DNA of 42,101 bases from Bacteriovoracaceae bacterium (GTDB lineage: Bacteria; Bdellovibrionota; Bacteriovoracia; Bacteriovoracales; Bacteriovoracaceae). Position 1 is the first letter of the stretch; the number at the start of each line of letters is the position of its first letter. Positions 14,521-24,701 of this stretch are shown here, piece after piece. The notes under the pieces are model-generated. The model saw only the letters and a list, made by a program, of their open reading frames with translations, was not told the DNA's origin and ran no database searches. Both the position numbers and the translations under genes were made by a program. The DNA is taken from NCBI GenBank assembly GCA_947451425.1, contig CANGAC010000004.1:1-42101 (forward strand). Direction: 5' to 3'.

Positions 14521-16596
14521 ATGGATAAGTTTTTTGAAAAGCTCAAAATCTTTTCTCAAAATTCCGATTTAGCAATCGCACTCGGTTTGATCGCCGTCCT
14601 CGGCGTGATGGTCGTGCCGGTTCCGCCAATCGTACTTGATGTCTTTCTGGCCTTCTCGATTGCGATTTCGATCGGGATTCTCCTGATGTCGGTGTACGCA
14701 AGAAAGCCGCTGGATTTCTCGACCTTCCCGTCAATCCTTCTCGTGACGACCCTCTTGCGTCTGTCACTGAACGTGGCCTCTACCCGTAACATTCTCCTTC
14801 ACGGAGCAACGGACGGAACTGCAGCTGCCGGTCACATCATCGAAGCCTTCGGTGAGTTCGTGGTCGGAGGTAACTACGCCGTCGGTATCATCATCTTCAT
14901 GATCCTCGTCGTCATTAACTTTATCGTTATTACAAAAGGTGCCGGTCGAGTCGCTGAAGTAAGTGCACGATTCACTCTCGATGCGATGCCAGGTAAACAG
15001 ATGGCGATCGATGCCGACTTAAATGCCGGCCTTATCAATGAAACAGAGGCCAAACGCCGTCGTGCGGAAGTCGCACAGGAAGCAGACTTTTACGGGTCCA
15101 TGGACGGTGCTTCGAAGTTCGTTCGAGGAGATGCCATCGCAGGTATCCTGATCACAGCGATTAACATCATCGGCGGTATCATCGTCGGTGTTGCCCAGAA
15201 CGATATGTCTTTCTCGGATGCCGCAAGAGTCTTCACCCTCCTCACGGTCGGGGATGGATTGATTGCGCAGATTCCAGCACTGATTATCTCTACAGCTGCC
15301 GGTCTCATCACAACCCGAAATTCCAATTCCAATGCTCTCGGAAACCAGGTCGGCCAGGAATTCGGCGCGCACCCGAAAGCTTTCTACATCACTGCGGTTG
15401 CGATCGGAATGTTCGGTTTTATTCCGGGCTTTCCTTTCATCCCATTCTTTCTCGTTGCCGGGCTCATTGCCTTCGCCGGATTCAAGATTGAGAGGAACAA
15501 GGAAAACGCAAAAGTCGCAGAAGCAAAAACAGCTGTCCAGGAAACAAAAGAGAAGAAAGAAACTCTCGAGTCTCTTCTTCCGGTGGAACTGGTTCAGCTC
15601 GAGGTTGGATACGGAATTGTATCGATCGTGGATGCCGAACAGAACGGAGACCTTCTCGAACGTATCTCTCATATCAGAAAGCAATTTGCTCTCGACTGGG
15701 GGGTTATCATCCCTTCCGTTCGTATCAAAGATAACCTGGAACTCAAGCCGGGTGGTTACTCCATCAAGCTCAAGGGAATGGAAATTGCCAAGGGTGAGCT
15801 CCAGCCTGATCACATGATGGCGATGGATCCGGGAACTGTGATTGAGCAGATGGATGGAGTGCCGACAAAAGAGCCGGTCTTCGGGCTCCCTGCGATCTGG
15901 ATTACGGACGACAGAAAAGATGAAGCCCAGTACAACGGTTACACCGTGGTGGATCTCTCGACAATTGTTGCGACTCACTTAACAGAAGTCCTGAAATCGA
16001 GTCTCTCTGAACTCTTCGGTCGTCAGGAACTCGTGAAAGTTCTCGATACCTTCAAGGAAGAGAATCCTAAAATTGTTTCGGATCTCATTCCGGAAATCAT
16101 GCCACTCGGAGTGGTGCTCAAAGTTCTTCAGAATCTTCTGCGCGAAGGTGTTTCGGTTCGTGATCTTCGCTCCATCCTCGAAACGCTCGCGGAATTCGGT
16201 CCATCAGCGAAGGACCCGGATACGCTTACGGAATACGTCCGCCAGTCGCTTTACCGCACGATCACGGAACGGATCAAGGGCTCGCAGGGTGATGTTCCGC
16301 TCTTCACTCTCGACCGCGGTCTGGAAGAAGCGGTGGCCCGCTCAATCATCAATACTGATCATGGTTCGCAGCTGAATCTTGATCCGAAAGTGACTCAGAC
16401 GATCCTCGCATCTCTCAATGAAAAAATTGAAGAAGCAACTTCACAGGGCGAGAAGATGGTGGTGCTTTGTTCACCGGTCATCCGTCGTCACTTCAAGAAG
16501 TTGACTGAAAAATTCATTCCCAACATGATCGTGGTCAGTCATAATGAACTTAGTCCAGATATTAACATCCGATCTCTCGGTACCGTGAGGTTGTAA
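14521..16596 (+). CDS. flhA: Flagellar export gate protein FlhA
   Basis: FHIPEP-family N-terminus; GAGRVAEVSARFTLDAMPGKQMAIDADLNAGLI. Confidence 0.98.
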   Translation: MDKFFEKLKIFSQNSDLAIALGLIAVLGVMVVPVPPIVLDVFLAFSIAISIGILLMSVYARKPLDFSTFPSILLVTTLLRLSLNVASTRNILLHGATDGTAAAGHIIEAFGEFVVGGNYAVGIIIFMILVVINFIVITKGAGRVAEVSARFTLDAMPGKQMAIDADLNAGLINETEAKRRRAEVAQEADFYGSMDGASKFVRGDAIAGILITAINIIGGIIVGVAQNDMSFSDAARVFTLLTVGDGLIAQIPALIISTAAGLITTRNSNSNALGNQVGQEFGAHPKAFYITAVAIGMFGFIPGFPFIPFFLVAGLIAFAGFKIERNKENAKVAEAKTAVQETKEKKETLESLLPVELVQLEVGYGIVSIVDAEQNGDLLERISHIRKQFALDWGVIIPSVRIKDNLELKPGGYSIKLKGMEIAKGELQPDHMMAMDPGTVIEQMDGVPTKEPVFGLPAIWITDDRKDEAQYNGYTVVDLSTIVATHLTEVLKSSLSELFGRQELVKVLDTFKEENPKIVSDLIPEIMPLGVVLKVLQNLLREGVSVRDLRSILETLAEFGPSAKDPDTLTEYVRQSLYRTITERIKGSQGDVPLFTLDRGLEEAVARSIINTDHGSQLNLDPKVTQTILASLNEKIEEATSQGEKMVVLCSPVIRRHFKKLTEKFIPNMIVVSHNELSPDINIRSLGTVRL

Positions 16597-16599
16597 AGA

Positions 16600-18114
16600 A
16601 TGTTCGTTAAGAAGTTCGAGGCCGACACATTAGAAGAAGCGCTTAAAGCAGTTAAGGTCGAGCTGGGTCCTGATGCGATCATTCTGAAGACTATTACTAA
16701 CACTGGCCTCAAAGGTGCCTTCAAAAAAAAGCGCATCGAGATTACCGCGGCCATCTCAGAGCGAAACTTTGAGAAAAAGGCGAAGGTGGATAAAGTGCTT
16801 AACGATGAACAGAAAGAAGCTTTTCACCAGCAGCCGGCCAAAAGCATGAACAAGACTATCCAGAAATATAATAATTCTCCGGGCGTTGAAACATCCAACG
16901 GAACTGGTTACGGAAGCCTTGGTCTCAATAAAGTGGTGAACACCATCTCTCAAAGCACGGCCAATCTTGCGGACGTGACTTCGAAAACCGGAAAACTTCT
17001 GAAGAACAGTCTCGATGATTTCTTGGGCGAAGAAGAAGGGGAGTTCCTGACTGATTCGGCTGAAGAAAGAGTCATTCGTCCCGCTGCCCGTCCAGCTCCC
17101 CGGGAGGCGCGCAGAGAAGCTCCCGCTCAGGAACCGACCCGCGGGAAGTACGCTGAACCTCCCGCGCAGAGAACGGAAGAAGCTCCTCGTGCCCAGGAGA
17201 ATAATTCTCCCGTGAGCCGTGAAGCTTACAACGAACTTCGCCAGATCATGGCGACCCAGCAGAACAAGATTCAGCTCCTCGAGCAGAAGATCCTCGAGTT
17301 CTCATCAAACTACCAGTTCAACCAGAAACACCTGAACGAAGCCAAGGGTCTCTTCCAGCTTCGCACGACTTTAAAGACTCTTGATGTGGACGAAGCGCAC
17401 ATTCTTGAACTCATCAAGAAAGCGCAATACGAACTCGCTAAAGATGATCTCGAAGACGCGGACGTGGTTTTTGAATTTGCCCTGAAAGAAATGGCGAGCT
17501 CGATCAATACAGCGATTCCTCTTTTTGCCCGCGTGGATAACGGAGAGCCCGTGATCACGATCCTTTGCTCGGAGGCAGCTTCCGGACAATCGACCATGGG
17601 AATGAAGATCGCGATCCTGAAAAAAGACGTCGTTTTCCTTCAGTATTCTCAGGATGCCCAGAACAATGGAGCAACTGACTTCGCTGCTCAGGTCTTCGGG
17701 ATCAAGGTAGAAAAAGTCCAGAATTACCCGGAACTGGTGGGTCTTACCAGAAAAGCTGTGGAAGCCGGCAAATCTGTCCTCATCGATGTCCGCCTGAACG
17801 GCAAACATTCCGATGAAACCAAAAAATTTGTTGAGACGATGAAACGTGGTTTCCATCACGTAGAAGTCCTTACCACGTTATCTGCCATTCACTCTGAACT
17901 TTATAACCGGAAAATTCTTGCTCGATACAAGGACTTTACGGACGGTGTTATCATTTCTCATGTGGATCTCTGCATGAACTTTGGGGCCCTCTACAATGTT
18001 CATAAAGGCCACAATAAGCTGCCCCTGAAATTCTTTGGAACAGGCCCCGTAGTTCCGGACGATATCGAAGGTGCAACTGCTGAGAGATTGATGGGTGGTC
18101 TCTTCCAGTTCTAA
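16600..18114 (+). CDS. flhF: FlhF-like SRP-GTPase-fold protein with eroded nucleotide-binding motifs
   Basis: FlhF N-terminus MFVKKFEADTLEEALKAVKVELGPDAIILKT; C-terminal LPLKFFGTGPVVPDDIEGATAERLMGGLF; located between flhA and flhG. Confidence 0.88.
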   Translation: MFVKKFEADTLEEALKAVKVELGPDAIILKTITNTGLKGAFKKKRIEITAAISERNFEKKAKVDKVLNDEQKEAFHQQPAKSMNKTIQKYNNSPGVETSNGTGYGSLGLNKVVNTISQSTANLADVTSKTGKLLKNSLDDFLGEEEGEFLTDSAEERVIRPAARPAPREARREAPAQEPTRGKYAEPPAQRTEEAPRAQENNSPVSREAYNELRQIMATQQNKIQLLEQKILEFSSNYQFNQKHLNEAKGLFQLRTTLKTLDVDEAHILELIKKAQYELAKDDLEDADVVFEFALKEMASSINTAIPLFARVDNGEPVITILCSEAASGQSTMGMKIAILKKDVVFLQYSQDAQNNGATDFAAQVFGIKVEKVQNYPELVGLTRKAVEAGKSVLIDVRLNGKHSDETKKFVETMKRGFHHVEVLTTLSAIHSELYNRKILARYKDFTDGVIISHVDLCMNFGALYNVHKGHNKLPLKFFGTGPVVPDDIEGATAERLMGGLFQF

Positions 18115-18176: not shown

Positions 18177-19043
18177 ATGCACAAGACCAGCGAGTGGTTG
18201 CAGACTTTTTCATCCGAAAAAAATACCAAGTCTCATTCTTTAGATTCTTTCAGACCGTGCGTAAAAATTTCTGTAACTGGCGGCAAGGGCGGAGTAGGGA
18301 AGACCTCCATCGCTCTGAAAACGGCCCAGGAACTCGCGAAGGCCGGTCACCGGACACTTCTCATCGATTGTGATTCCAATCTCTCCAATACGGCGATTAA
18401 GCTGGGTCTGCCGATGGATAATAAATTCGAAAAACTCCTCTCATCAGAGAAAACTTTCGAAGAGTGCCTGATCGTCCAGGGAAATTTCCACCTTCTTCCG
18501 GCCTGCAACGGCTCGATTGAAGTTTTCGAATCAAAAATCAATTTCGATGAAGTCATCATCGACATCATCCAGTGCCATGAGCACGAGTATGATTACATCA
18601 TCCTCGATTGCCCTGCGGGAATGTCCGTTTCCACACTCACATTGAACGCTTATTGCGACCACCGCTTCGTTGTGGTCACACCTGATAAATCCTCCATCAC
18701 TGATTCGTACTCACTCATTAAGGTGCTCTCAAATCGCTTCAACGTGATTGATAACCACCTCATCGTGAACATGTATCAGAACGACAGACAGTTCCAGAAA
18801 GTCGTGATGACCCTGACAGAAACAATCGAGAACTACATCGGTTCACGCACAACTGTCCTTGGTGGCATCCCGAAACTGGATGTTTCTGCCGAGGGGTTTG
18901 ATACTTTTTTCCTCTCTGAAGGGAAAAATGAGTTTCACAAAAACTTCGTTAAACTTTTATATGGGTTCACCGAAAAAGTTGGTGGACCAATGATCCGCAA
19001 TTCAAGCGCAGGTCATTTGGCCTTTGAACACGACGTTCAATAA
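18177..19043 (+). CDS. flhG: FlhG/FleN MinD-type ATPase
   Basis: Deviant Walker A ISVTGGKGGVGKTSIALKTA; LLIDCDSNLSN; YDYIILDCPAGM; adjacent to flhF. Confidence 0.93.
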   Translation: MHKTSEWLQTFSSEKNTKSHSLDSFRPCVKISVTGGKGGVGKTSIALKTAQELAKAGHRTLLIDCDSNLSNTAIKLGLPMDNKFEKLLSSEKTFEECLIVQGNFHLLPACNGSIEVFESKINFDEVIIDIIQCHEHEYDYIILDCPAGMSVSTLTLNAYCDHRFVVVTPDKSSITDSYSLIKVLSNRFNVIDNHLIVNMYQNDRQFQKVVMTLTETIENYIGSRTTVLGGIPKLDVSAEGFDTFFLSEGKNEFHKNFVKLLYGFTEKVGGPMIRNSSAGHLAFEHDVQ

Positions 19044-19069: not shown

Positions 19070-19855
19070 ATGTCATCACTCACGGCCAAATTGAAAAACC
19101 TCAAAGACTACCGCTCAACCGTTGACCCGAAAGTCAAAGACGAAATCATTCTTGAATACGCTCCGTTTGTCCGTTATATCGCGCAGAAAATCGCGTCACG
19201 TCTTCCGCCGAATATCGAGCTGGATGACATGATTTCATGCGGAGTTATCGGTCTCATGGACGCGATCGAGAAATTCGATCCAACCCGCGATAACAAATTT
19301 AAAACGTACGCTGAATTCCGTATCCGTGGAGCGATCCTCGATGAGCTTCGCTCACAGGACTGGGTTCCCCGTTCCGTTCGTGAGAAGGCCAAGATCGTAG
19401 AGAAAGCTTACGCTAAGCTTGAGAAAGATCTCGGTCGTCCGGCAACTGACGAAGAGATGTGCGAGCATCTCGCGTGCTCAATGGACGAGTTCCATGAGCT
19501 CATCAACAAATCAAAATCTGTCTCTCTTCTCAATATCGAAGATGCCGCAGCGATGTCCAAGGGTGATAAAAAACTCATGGTCTCTCTCATGGAAACTTCC
19601 CGTGGTGCTAACCCGGCAACGGCCGTTGGTTACAAGCGCGCGCAGGAAATCATCAAGGACGGGATCAAGTCCCTTCCGGAGAAGCAGCGTCTCGTTCTTT
19701 CTCTCTATTACTTCGAAGACCTCAACCTGAAAGAAATCGGCCAGGTTCTCGACGTCACAGAGTCGCGCGTGTCTCAGCTTCACACTCAGGCGATCCTGAA
19801 ACTGAAAGCAAAACTCCGCAATCAATTCGATTCATACGAAGATCTGGCGAGCTAA
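19070..19855 (+). CDS. fliA: Flagellar sigma factor sigma-28
   Basis: DPTRDNKFKTYAEFRIRGAILDELRSQDWVPRSVREKAK; LSLYYFEDLNLKEIGQVLDVTESRVSQLHTQAILKL. Confidence 0.96.
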   Translation: MSSLTAKLKNLKDYRSTVDPKVKDEIILEYAPFVRYIAQKIASRLPPNIELDDMISCGVIGLMDAIEKFDPTRDNKFKTYAEFRIRGAILDELRSQDWVPRSVREKAKIVEKAYAKLEKDLGRPATDEEMCEHLACSMDEFHELINKSKSVSLLNIEDAAAMSKGDKKLMVSLMETSRGANPATAVGYKRAQEIIKDGIKSLPEKQRLVLSLYYFEDLNLKEIGQVLDVTESRVSQLHTQAILKLKAKLRNQFDSYEDLAS

Positions 19856-19991: not shown

Positions 19992-22289
19992 ATGGATTGG
20001 AAAAAAACCTTCACTAAGGGCTCATGGCTTATTCACGGGATCTTTCTCGTCGCCATCCTTTGCACACTGGGAACGGGCCTGTTTGCTCTTCGCCTGGCCC
20101 AGTATCAGGCAACAGAAGCTGAACGTACGACGAAGGTCAAAGAACTCATCACCTACTTAAAGACGGATGATTCGTTTGAAAAAATCGCCAAGTATTTATC
20201 CTGGGCGCAGTCAGAAAAAGCCTTCGAGAAAGTGAAAGAACTCTCTGCACGGATGGCGGAAACTGAAACCATCCTCGAAGTAAAACCAAACGACGAACTT
20301 CAGAAGTCGCTTCGCTCTTTCAATAAATCCATCACGAAGGGAACCGGCATGTCGGACCCTTCGGATGCGCTGAAAGTGATGAGTAACAAGATCAACGCTC
20401 TCTCTGATGTTGCTCACTCCAATGGCTTCAGAAGAGTTTCCGCGATCGCTGACAAGATGAAGTCCCGCCTCTCAAACCTCACAGCGAAAACTGTTGCGGG
20501 CTCGGTCCAGGTCTCTTACTTAAAAACTGATCTCAAAACACTTTCTACACTCGTTTCCGGTGCGGCCCTGAGTGATGGCGAAAAGAATGGTCTTCTTGCC
20601 CGCTTTGAATCAATCGAGCAGGAACTGAATCTCCTCTCCTCACTCAGCTCTGAATCAAGAAACATGAAAGCCGAAATCACCACGGCCACTCTGGCGATGG
20701 CAAAATGGGTCGCGCAGCTTGAGACGAAAGCACTCACGTTATCTGGTGTTCCGGTTCAGAAGCAGAAGCACCTTATCATCTTCCTGTTCTCGATCGTGGG
20801 CTTCATGATGACCGCGTGGCTGGGTGTCCTTTATCTTTTCCGCTGGGAAAAAATCACGATCGGCACGCAGGTTGAAAACGAAGTGAAGAGTGTGATTGAA
20901 AAAGGTATCCTCGCTGACCAGAGATTCATGGTGGACCATTACTCCGATTCCACCCGCGAAGATATCATCCGCCTTCTCGATGAACTCAAAGTGAAACTCA
21001 ATCTCGGATCCATGCTCCATGAAGGTCTCCCTTTTGGTGGCTGCATGCTGGATAAGAATTTCCGTGTGACCTGGTTCAACGAAATCTTCCTCGAGCAGTT
21101 CTATCTTTCTCCGGAAGAAGTCCGGTCTGAAACGTTTCACTGGGATTACCTTCGCGAAACCCTGAATCTCTCTGAAGATCCGGTTTACGAAGCTCTCGTC
21201 AACAAAGTCGCCGGCATCTATCCGGTGAAAATGAAGCAGGATGAGATGTCTCCGGCCCAGCCGTACGAGATGTACGTCACTCCGATCACGATGAACCGCG
21301 AAGACCGGGTGATGGTGTTCTTCTATCCGTTGATTTCTGTGAAAGACGCCATCACGGAGCAGGTGAATCTCTCGCGGGATGTGATGAAGCGCTTCGCTGA
21401 CCTCTGGAACATGGACACGCTCGATGAAGATGAGCTGGCCCTCCTCGAAAAAGATTTCGCTGCCAATAATCTCGAAGACACGTTCGTTGAACTCCGCGAT
21501 CTCTATGAGCGCATCGCACTTGAGAAGCAGGAATATCTCCGTACGATCCAGGTGCTTGAATCTGAAAATACCGAATACAGAAACTCTCTCGATGCCATCT
21601 CCCGCATGGAAGAAGAGAAAAAAGAAATCATCAGAAAAGAGATGACCATCGCCAATGAACTCAAGACGTCGATGATCACGACACTTGAGAAGTGCGAGAT
21701 GCTCACGCACATCAACAAGGGTGTCCTCCAGCAGAATGATGAACTCCGCACTGAAGCGATGAGAATTCAGGAGAAAGGCATCGACGGCATGAAACGTGTC
21801 CGCGAAGTGATGGACATGGTTACCCAGATCGATGGTCTTCGCGCTGACTACAAGAAACTGAAGTTCGATCTCATGGAGAACAAGGCGCGCCTCATTTCCA
21901 TGAATAATTCTCTCCTCTCGGGTCTTCCGGTCCTGGATGAAAACCAGCAGAAGCTCGCTACGAAGTACAAGGATGAACTCGCCCGTCTCGATGTGACGGT
22001 CAGTATCCTTGAGAAAAAACTTGGGTCTCTCGATATGCTCGTAGGAAAAATGAGCATGATGAATGAAGCAAGGACAACCGAGCAGCTTCCGTTTAATTTC
22101 CAGACTTCTCAGAAAGATCACGCCCTGAAAGAGACTATCCATGAACTTCAGAAAGTGCTGACGGCGGAAGAAGGGAAACTCGTGACAAATCTCCAGGCCC
22201 TGCGCGAACTCATGAAGCAGGACATGGAAGCTTCACGGAAGTCTCAGGAGATCTCTGAAAGAGGCGAGAACCAGTCTCTTCTGTCCTGA
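19992..22289 (+). CDS. Two-TM membrane protein with PAS-like domain and long coiled coil; no recognised output domain
   Basis: TM1 WLIHGIFLVAILCTLGTGLFAL, TM2 HLIIFLFSIVGFMMTAWLGVLYLF, PAS-like GCMLDKNFRVTWFNEIFLEQF, then extended heptad-like helix. Confidence 0.75.
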   Translation: MDWKKTFTKGSWLIHGIFLVAILCTLGTGLFALRLAQYQATEAERTTKVKELITYLKTDDSFEKIAKYLSWAQSEKAFEKVKELSARMAETETILEVKPNDELQKSLRSFNKSITKGTGMSDPSDALKVMSNKINALSDVAHSNGFRRVSAIADKMKSRLSNLTAKTVAGSVQVSYLKTDLKTLSTLVSGAALSDGEKNGLLARFESIEQELNLLSSLSSESRNMKAEITTATLAMAKWVAQLETKALTLSGVPVQKQKHLIIFLFSIVGFMMTAWLGVLYLFRWEKITIGTQVENEVKSVIEKGILADQRFMVDHYSDSTREDIIRLLDELKVKLNLGSMLHEGLPFGGCMLDKNFRVTWFNEIFLEQFYLSPEEVRSETFHWDYLRETLNLSEDPVYEALVNKVAGIYPVKMKQDEMSPAQPYEMYVTPITMNREDRVMVFFYPLISVKDAITEQVNLSRDVMKRFADLWNMDTLDEDELALLEKDFAANNLEDTFVELRDLYERIALEKQEYLRTIQVLESENTEYRNSLDAISRMEEEKKEIIRKEMTIANELKTSMITTLEKCEMLTHINKGVLQQNDELRTEAMRIQEKGIDGMKRVREVMDMVTQIDGLRADYKKLKFDLMENKARLISMNNSLLSGLPVLDENQQKLATKYKDELARLDVTVSILEKKLGSLDMLVGKMSMMNEARTTEQLPFNFQTSQKDHALKETIHELQKVLTAEEGKLVTNLQALRELMKQDMEASRKSQEISERGENQSLLS

Positions 22290-23204: not shown

Positions 23205-24701
23205 ATGTTTCGCATCAGCTCGGCCATTTTGATTGCCCTTGTTTCATTCTCTGCCTTTGCCCGTGTGAGCATGGATGAGAAGAGAGACCGTGTGCGCTTC
23301 CTCGAGCGTCTATCCCGCGCCATTCCCGCTCTTCACATTGCGGGCTATCAGCGTGAACTGGCCTACGAAGAAAGAAACCTGTCGATGGAAGAGCGTGCTG
23401 AAAACGAAGCTCAGCTCATGGCCGAAACAATTAAGAAACAAGTTATCGCCTCTTACGAGAAGGCCTTTGAAGAATCATCCGATGAGGTGAAAGCCAAAGA
23501 AACCGTGAAAGAGTCCATCGACCGTGACCTTGACCTCGCGGAACCTGATCTTCGCGATTCGATCAAAGAAATTGCTTACAAGGCTTTAGAAGATGCCGCC
23601 AATGGTGCAGCTTCTTCTGAAGAAAATACCGATCCTCTTCAGCGCTTCATGATGGTTGAAGTGACGGAACGTTCGCGCTTCTTAAATCTTGAGACGATCT
23701 CGAGTTCCAACGGCAACGCTGCTTCACCTATTGCCAGCACTGACCGCGATGCGGAACGGAAGTCATACAACAATAAAAATGAAATTCTCGAATCTCTCAC
23801 TTCAGATCGCGCCAATACCCGCTGGTTATCAACAGCAAGTATTACAACCAACTCATCCGTCACCAAGCGGGCTGATGCCAACATCAGTTACACTCTTAAG
23901 ATTAACTTCCTCGGCGCTGAACTTTCCGGCGGGCCAAATATCGCCTTTCACCGCCACTATGAATCACGGGTGGTCGTTCTCTCAGAAGGACTCCAGCCGG
24001 GCGTGAATCCTAACGGCGATTTTGATTTCAACAAACGCGACCGCGCGGGCCAGGTCATCATGTCCGGCGGAAAAGCACAGAAGAGATTCATCGCTTTCTA
24101 CTGCGAACTATCGCTCAACTTCAACACAGAATACTCGGGCAGCGGAAACTTCAGCATCGCCGGCATCGGCGGCGGAGCTTCGTACGGCCACCGCTATAGT
24201 AATGAAGTCACCATGACTTCCAGACGTATCCTTGTTCCGGAATACATCGGTAATCAGACCGTTACTTTATCTTTCCTTCAGAATCTTTGCCTCGGTGATT
24301 TCTTAGGTGCCAAGGTCAATAACTACATGACCGTAAAACAGTCCCTCAATGTCCAGATGAGAAACGTCATCGCTTCTCTTCGTTTCTCTCACCCGATGAC
24401 TAAATGTGTCCGCGACTCTCAGTGTATCGGCTGGTTCAATTCCGGCATGAGAGGAGTCGTGGGGAATGCCGCTGTTCCAAGATGCGTGGAAGAATCGAGA
24501 GAAAAATACTTCGCCTGTGCCGTAAGATCCGTCGTGAACCAGAAGTGCCCGGTCTTTAAGAATGGAAAACACACTTCAGACGGAATGTTTGAGTACGCCT
24601 GTGACCAGGGACTTTATTGCAAGACGGTTAAGGAAGGCGGATGGTTCCAGAATTACAATCTCTTCGAGTACGCTGAAGGCCGCTGCCAGCCCCGCAGATA
24701 A
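23205..24701 (+). CDS. Secreted protein with Cys-rich C-terminus
   Basis: Signal peptide SSAILIALVSFSAFA; C-terminal CVRDSQCIGWF...CVEES...CAVRS...CPVF...CDQGLYC...CQPRR. Confidence 0.65.
   Translation: MFRISSAILIALVSFSAFARVSMDEKRDRVRFLERLSRAIPALHIAGYQRELAYEERNLSMEERAENEAQLMAETIKKQVIASYEKAFEESSDEVKAKETVKESIDRDLDLAEPDLRDSIKEIAYKALEDAANGAASSEENTDPLQRFMMVEVTERSRFLNLETISSSNGNAASPIASTDRDAERKSYNNKNEILESLTSDRANTRWLSTASITTNSSVTKRADANISYTLKINFLGAELSGGPNIAFHRHYESRVVVLSEGLQPGVNPNGDFDFNKRDRAGQVIMSGGKAQKRFIAFYCELSLNFNTEYSGSGNFSIAGIGGGASYGHRYSNEVTMTSRRILVPEYIGNQTVTLSFLQNLCLGDFLGAKVNNYMTVKQSLNVQMRNVIASLRFSHPMTKCVRDSQCIGWFNSGMRGVVGNAAVPRCVEESREKYFACAVRSVVNQKCPVFKNGKHTSDGMFEYACDQGLYCKTVKEGGWFQNYNLFEYAEGRCQPRR

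Follow-up and report, generated by a model that had tools for sequence, protein, structure and literature searches.

The FlhF of Bacteriovoracia keeps the SRP-GTPase fold, has lost its canonical G1-G4 motifs and is predicted to be a pseudo-GTPase that arose once in the class ancestor

The stretch of DNA analyzed here (the window, 42,101 nucleotides from a Bacteriovoracaceae bacterium) carries on its forward strand a flagellar cluster comprising fliL, fliM, fliO, fliP, fliR, flhB, flhA, flhF, flhG, and fliA. The flhF homologue (16600-18114, + strand) is an open reading frame of 504 amino acids with an ATG start and no internal stop. It is directly preceded on the same strand by flhA (14521-16596; PF00771, E 1.7e-275) and followed by flhG (18177-19043), encoding a MinD/ParA-like ATPase (Pfam AAA_31, E 2.3e-19) with an intact deviant Walker A motif, GKGGVGKTS, and by fliA (19070-19855), encoding sigma-28 (TIGR02479, E 3.2e-80). 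The flhA-flhF-flhG-fliA neighborhood and the co-occurrence with flagella are those of a member of the FlhF family. Directly 3' of fliA, positions 19992-22289 encode a 765-amino-acid membrane/coiled-coil protein with a weak PAS_4 match, and a 498-amino-acid open reading frame at 23205-24701 has no Pfam match.

The FlhF equivalog model TIGR03499 matches the window protein (E 1e-15), its best stretch covering residues 1-298, with a score of 58.5 bits, which lies well under the curated cut-off of 174 bits. This cut-off is reached by 103 of the 244 genomes of the phylum and by none of those of the class Bacteriovoracia. Pfam SRP54 did not match the window FlhF, and a PDB search with its single sequence found nothing useful. 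The idea that the genome encodes a canonical FlhF in addition was rejected, since its canonical SRP GTPases are two in all, Ffh and FtsY. The loci L167, L168, G000:C40, and G000:C194 of this genome take in a full-length FliG that adjoins a FliF-like open reading frame and three further, small FliG_C-type domain proteins (open frames of 149-258 amino acids).

Three parts can be distinguished in the protein: a FliG-interaction domain (FID) of the B domain (residues 1-55; 16600-16764), a variable linker of the B domain (16765-17244), and an SRP-GTPase-like NG domain (residues 216-504; 17245-18111), all on the + strand. The initial annotation had described the N-terminal FlhF sequence as intact, and this was borne out, the FliG-interaction domain 9EN1 being the sole PDB profile match (E 2.3e-6) and also the top fold. 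AlphaFold2 predicts a beta-alpha-beta-beta arrangement for residues 1-62 (pLDDT 84), and Foldseek places 9EN1 first with a TMt of 0.90 and an E value of 0.01, a value that, for so short a domain, is weak on its own. Structure prediction and comparison with FlhF NG domains, the check proposed with that annotation, gave an NG fold: with pseudo sequences only as input, AlphaFold2 reached a pLDDT of 81.7 and a pTM of 0.74, and the top Foldseek match was FlhF-GDP (8R9R; E 6.3e-12, TMt 0.75), followed by the NG domains of Ffh/FtsY. The NG profile search was headed by the FlhF structure 2PX0, with GKTT aligned to GQSS; matches to influenza HA2 in this search were discarded as noise, lying as they do in the linker/coiled-coil stretch. 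Two of the features that define FlhF membership, an N-terminal FID and an SRP-type NG domain with an I-box, are thus present.

Within this NG domain, the nucleotide motifs G1 to G4 are replaced. At G1, the pseudo-P-loop SEAASGQST (17569-17595, + strand, as for the following motifs) lies on the canonical GPTGVGKTT in alignments with relatives. The G2 region reads QYSQ (17641-17652), the canonical DTFK/DTYR loop being lost. At G3, DVRL (17785-17796) stands for DTAG, with Asp396 kept and the Gly lost, and at G4, SHVDL (17956-17970) stands for TKLDE, with the Lys and Glu lost and Asp456 kept. The G5 closing loop, GTGPVVPDD (18037-18063), is retained. Of the features of a functional SRP GTPase, the protein lacks G1 GxxxxGK[ST], G2 DTxR with its arginine finger, G3 DxxG, and G4 TKxD, and it has the G5 closing loop, in which G482, P486, and D488 are invariant or nearly so. 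Misalignment of the motifs was rejected because three alignments agree with a profile built from pseudo sequences alone, which places the motifs likewise on the solved FlhF 2PX0. The four replacements and the intact C-terminal VPDDIE segment had thus been read correctly from the sequence; the accompanying statement that every motif is altered holds for G1-G4 and has to be amended for G329, S331, D396, D456, and the G5 loop (GTGxxVPDD), which are kept and almost invariant.

The class is represented in our sample by one family, with 130 genomes in 48 genera. An FlhF match was found in 123 of these genomes and 46 of the genera, and this FlhF is present in all 25 genomes of the same genus and in most other sampled genera. 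Public records with this protein bear the titles Bacteriovorax stolpii, Bacteriovorax sp., Halobacteriovorax sp., and Bacteriovoracaceae. Six of the seven genomes without an FlhF match also lack FlhA, the exception being an 87%-complete MAG. Since FlhA is absent from nine of the ten class genomes tested that have no or a weak FlhF match (three weak), the class FlhF goes with the flagellum. The motifs were surveyed in 79 distinct class sequences (L131 included) from 44 genera, with at least one sequence per genus. The position of the P-loop Lys is occupied by Gln, never by Lys, in every sequence covering it (the untrimmed P-loop of L131 reads SPRSSGQSS, and L112 has AQ for GQ), and the first P-loop Gly is a Ser in 76 of 78. 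The Asp and Arg/Lys positions of G2 are unconserved or gapped. The G3 Asp is kept in 78 of 79 sequences and the G3 Gly is lost, while the G4 Asp is kept in all 78 and the G4 Lys is mostly replaced by His, Tyr, or Asn (Lys in two). Close relatives with intact motifs were looked for, and none occurs among the 79 class sequences. Outside the class, GK[ST] is present in all 38 FlhFs examined, which belong to further families of the phylum (some of the records being titled otherwise).

In a tree of the NG domain, a single branch (100*) separates all pseudo sequences from the rest, and the single origin was also recovered with the motif columns removed; how this tree relates the pseudo clade to the other families is not to be trusted, with a stem of about 2.2 changes per site and weak forks. 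dN/dS was calculated by the Nei-Gojobori method for pairs from the genus and one close genus in which dS could be estimated; the median was 0.018 in the FID (residues 1-60), 0.058 in N, and 0.050 in G, as against 0.235 in the linker (residues 100-210). As dS is near saturation, the ratios are rough, but the contrast with the linker is clear. By these codon comparisons, all parts of FlhF except the linker are shown to be under strong purifying selection. Within the genus, Q330 is encoded by CAA 12 times and by CAG 11 times, and each motif Ser by four to six codons, while the residues are constant. Because Q330 occurs in every covering sequence and the codons vary only synonymously in the genus, the altered motifs are, on this evidence, far beyond chance or sequencing error. 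The window belongs to a MAG that is 89% complete and split into 328 contigs, which could suggest a pseudogene, decay confined to this MAG, or an artefact of assembly or frameshift. This explanation is extremely improbable, as the same altered motifs are found in 79 distinct sequences from 44 genera, among them those of G016, a genome in one contig, and G027, a genome in two, the frames are open throughout, dN/dS of the G domain is about 0.05, and codon variation inside the motif is synonymous; local decay or MAG error is refuted by the class survey and the selection data. The FlhF of Bacteriovoracia is best explained as a true, vertically inherited FlhF that was made a pseudo-GTPase once, in the class ancestor, and it is a variant within the known FlhF family, not a new type of system.

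Compared with the FlhFs of B. subtilis (2PX0/2PX3) and S. putrefaciens (8R9R, 9EN1), the class FlhF has the same gene order, FID, and linker, and shares the NG fold with its I-box and VPDDIE closing loop. In contrast to them, it lacks the P-loop Lys, DTxR, DxxG, and TKxDE; neither hydrolysis of GTP nor a composite dimer site with two GTPs is possible in the known way. It also differs from the Bdellovibrio-type FlhFs of the same phylum (families f6, f11, f15, f16, f20, and f21), many of which have loosened G3 and G4 motifs (D[FYC]xG; T[SGF]xDE), whereas their GK[ST] P-loop and D-x-x-K G2 loop are intact in nearly all. In loci of f6, f11, f15, f16, and f21 (L147-L157, L159, L166, L087), GKT and the G2 loop are kept, the G4 Lys is often replaced (TSLDE, TGIDE, NDLDE, TFLDE), G3 reads D[FYC]xG, and FlhG is without DQAxxLR; Bdellovibrio FlhF, too, may be less competent as a GTPase. 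A shorter type of FlhF (about 350-380 amino acids; L073-L082), which occurs in Bdellovibrionota and in records titled Myxococcota/Deltaproteobacteria, has an intact P-loop, a DSPAL-like G3, and no VPEDIE tail. The FlhFs of L090 and L094 (f12) and L089 (f8) have GK[ST] without the G2 Asp (QL, NT, or EC for DT), and no MinD-like gene was found adjoining these flhF genes. GTPase-dead FlhF mutants (Vibrio R334A, Pseudomonas R251G) do not hydrolyze GTP and keep their polar localization (PMC6092412); they are engineered single changes with intact binding motifs, whereas in the class FlhF G1-G4 have all been altered by evolution. In eukaryotes, the p190RhoGAP pseudoGTPase domains (PMC5593906) and degenerate septins (PMC10731463) are described as keeping the G fold with degenerate motifs and a scaffold or assembly role; they belong to another GTPase class (not SIMIBI/SRP), and nucleotide binding varies among them.

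Conservation within the NG domain was scored over 261 columns, with a mean identity of 62%. D488, G482, P475, D456, K336, and Q330 are invariant, followed by D396 and G329, and most of these top-conserved columns fall in or beside what is the nucleotide site in canonical SRP GTPases. In or near the pocket, S324, Q330, E433, Y435, N436, and C458 are nearly invariant and specific to the class, unlike in canonical FlhF. This pattern of conservation indicates that the nucleotide pocket is rewired, not abandoned. In Vibrio alginolyticus FlhF, T306A and D439A leave the cells without flagella, K305A and K437A cells are still flagellate at a reduced level, as are G299 mutants, G304 and D377 mutants are reduced, the effect at G380 is mild, charge reversal at E440 abolishes function, and R334A shows hydrolysis to be dispensable for function and localization (PMC6092412). 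Mapped by motif position, the class FlhF keeps Ser/Thr331 (T306), Asp456 (D439), Gly329 (G304), and Asp396 (D377), and it has lost the canonical residues at Ser324 (G299), Gln330 (K305), His454 (K437), Leu399 (G380), and the catalytic R334. The lost residues are thus mostly those tolerating mutation in Vibrio and the essential ones are kept, a good match that is imperfect because the equivalent of E440 is lost as well (Leu457). In 8R9R, GDP is contacted by Lys254, Thr255, and Thr256 (G1), Asp388 and Glu389 (G4), and Gln414 (G5), with Mg2+ unseen (PMC10910532). Three of these six contacts are kept in the class FlhF, the others being replaced by Q330 (Lys254), L457 (Glu389), and P483 (Gln414).

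Canonical FlhG stimulates FlhF via the Gln of its DQAxxLR helix (PMC12826062). This helix is found in none of the 72 distinct class FlhGs; 70 of them have WL instead (KTSEWLxSF in the genus), and nearly all retain GKGGVGKT, the ATPase motif. In the window, the FlhG N-terminus MHKTSEWLQTF (18177-18209, + strand) carries this conserved WLxS(F/Q)-like element at the place expected for DQAxxLR. In one genome of the same genus (L024, genome G002), the flhG adjoining flhF encodes GSPGSGKT in place of GKGGVGKT, its Walker B reads ECPPLGK, and the WL element is missing; in this one species FlhG may be inactive while FlhF persists. Elsewhere in the phylum, families with a DTAG/TKLDE-type FlhF have an FlhG with DQAxxLR (L088, L091, L093, L098, L162), and Bdellovibrio-type FlhGs without DQAxxLR are paired with GKT-bearing FlhFs. 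Because of these last pairs, the idea of a specific co-loss of the FlhG helix with the FlhF P-loop is weakened. The same distribution among living forms suggests a graded series in the phylum, from the full switch, through forms in which the FlhG helix, the G4 Lys, and G3 are loosened, to the additional loss of G1 and G2 in Bacteriovoracia.

In published accounts FlhF is a switch that depends on GTP, and polar placement is said to require its GTP binding in several species. The FlhF known from them tethers FliG to a landmark and does not serve as the landmark. In Bacteriovoracia, GTP hydrolysis by the known SRP-GTPase chemistry has very probably been lost, as judged from the motifs, and we are less confident that the switch is lost as regards all nucleotide binding. 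A kept fold, lost motifs, and retained selection make this protein a pseudo-GTPase, for which the absence of nucleotide binding and hydrolysis is predicted. The initial annotation, which had proposed a pseudo-GTPase with coordinated motif loss and a retained fold, is upheld by alignment, AlphaFold2/Foldseek, purifying selection, and class-wide fixation, except that the pocket is rewired and among the most conserved parts. Its proposal of a structural landmark rather than a GTP switch would better be worded as a tether, and the loss of the switch is what we infer. In the Shewanella protein, FliG is bound by the FID, and HubP, a protein of the cell pole, by the NG domain regardless of nucleotide; according to the proposed mechanism, hydrolysis stimulated by FlhG sets off another cycle of capture (PMC11236974). 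With hydrolysis subtracted from this scheme, the tether remains. We favor, as the probable reading, that the class FlhF is a constitutive tether between FliG and the pole, with the ATP cycle of FlhG as the remaining switch. GTP hydrolysis would be gone, and GTP-dependent dimerization would no longer act as a switch. The FID would hold FliG and, via FliG, also FliF, while the NG domain would dock at the cell pole through an interaction that is nucleotide-independent already in Shewanella. Flagellar release and counting would have shifted from FlhG-stimulated GTP hydrolysis to the FlhG ATP cycle, the DQAxxLR helix being replaced by the conserved WLxS element. As for the pocket in its rewired form (Ser324/Gly329/Gln330/Asp396/Asp456/G5 loop), it probably keeps the protein in a single conformation, as an internal lock or a protein interface. 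One polar flagellum per cell is recorded for Bacteriovorax stolpii and Halobacteriovorax marinus (PMC7175336, PMC5760749), and thus the class achieves polar, number-controlled flagellation with this FlhF. A HubP/FimV search of the genome gave no match, but neither did the search control.

The tether model has to face the 100% conservation of Q330, D456, G482, and D488, which a plain scaffold would not need, and the retention of the G4 Asp and the G1 Ser/Thr, whose change to alanine leaves Vibrio without flagella (PMC6092412), so that guanine-nucleotide binding may survive. FlhF could then be dead for hydrolysis and still bind nucleotide, the pocket holding GDP, GTP, or a different guanine nucleotide, for instance (p)ppGpp, with no Mg2+ involved. 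Asp456, the P-loop Ser/Thr, and the G5 loop would provide the contacts, and the nucleotide would act as a structural cofactor or the protein as a slow sensor. Such a pocket would account for the invariant or nearly invariant Asp456, Gly482, Asp488, Gly329, Ser/Thr331-332, and Lys336, and would agree with the kept half of the 8R9R contacts, with the lack of visible Mg2+ in that structure (PMC10910532), and with the flagellate K305A and K437A as opposed to T306A and D439A cells in Vibrio (PMC6092412). It is hard to reconcile with the replaced equivalents of Lys254, Glu389, and Gln414, with the missing DTxR loop and DxxG Gly, and with the lost P-loop Lys, and we consider it unlikely. In P-loop NTPases, loss of this Lys usually leads to a strong drop in affinity. 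The class-specific, near-invariant pocket positions S324, Q330, E433, Y435, N436, and C458 could also mean that the NG domain was recruited for a new task, either catalysis or the binding of a ligand, in which case its GQ[ST] loop would bind a protein tail or some ligand other than a nucleotide; as the genomic position, the FID, and the co-occurrence with flagella are unchanged and nothing points to a specific ligand, this seems quite improbable. The constitutive tether could be given a more specific form, which we put forward tentatively as possible though somewhat doubtful: the Gln-for-Lys pocket (S...GQ[ST], G3 D, G4 D, GTGxxVPDD) would lock a constitutive nucleotide-free or Mg-free GDP-bound homodimer or FliG-capturing state, and the FlhG ATPase with its WLxS helix would alone set flagellar number, making an ATP-only FlhF/FlhG circuit.

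A search of the literature outside subscription journals found no report coupling FlhF with a pseudo-GTPase or with Bacteriovoracia. A whole, mostly predatory class, including cultivated predators with one polar flagellum, has apparently lived without GTP switch chemistry in FlhF since the origin of the class. The class FlhF is thus a natural experiment separating the tether function from the GTP cycle, and it leads to the prediction that the FlhG ATPase would suffice for the control of flagellar number.
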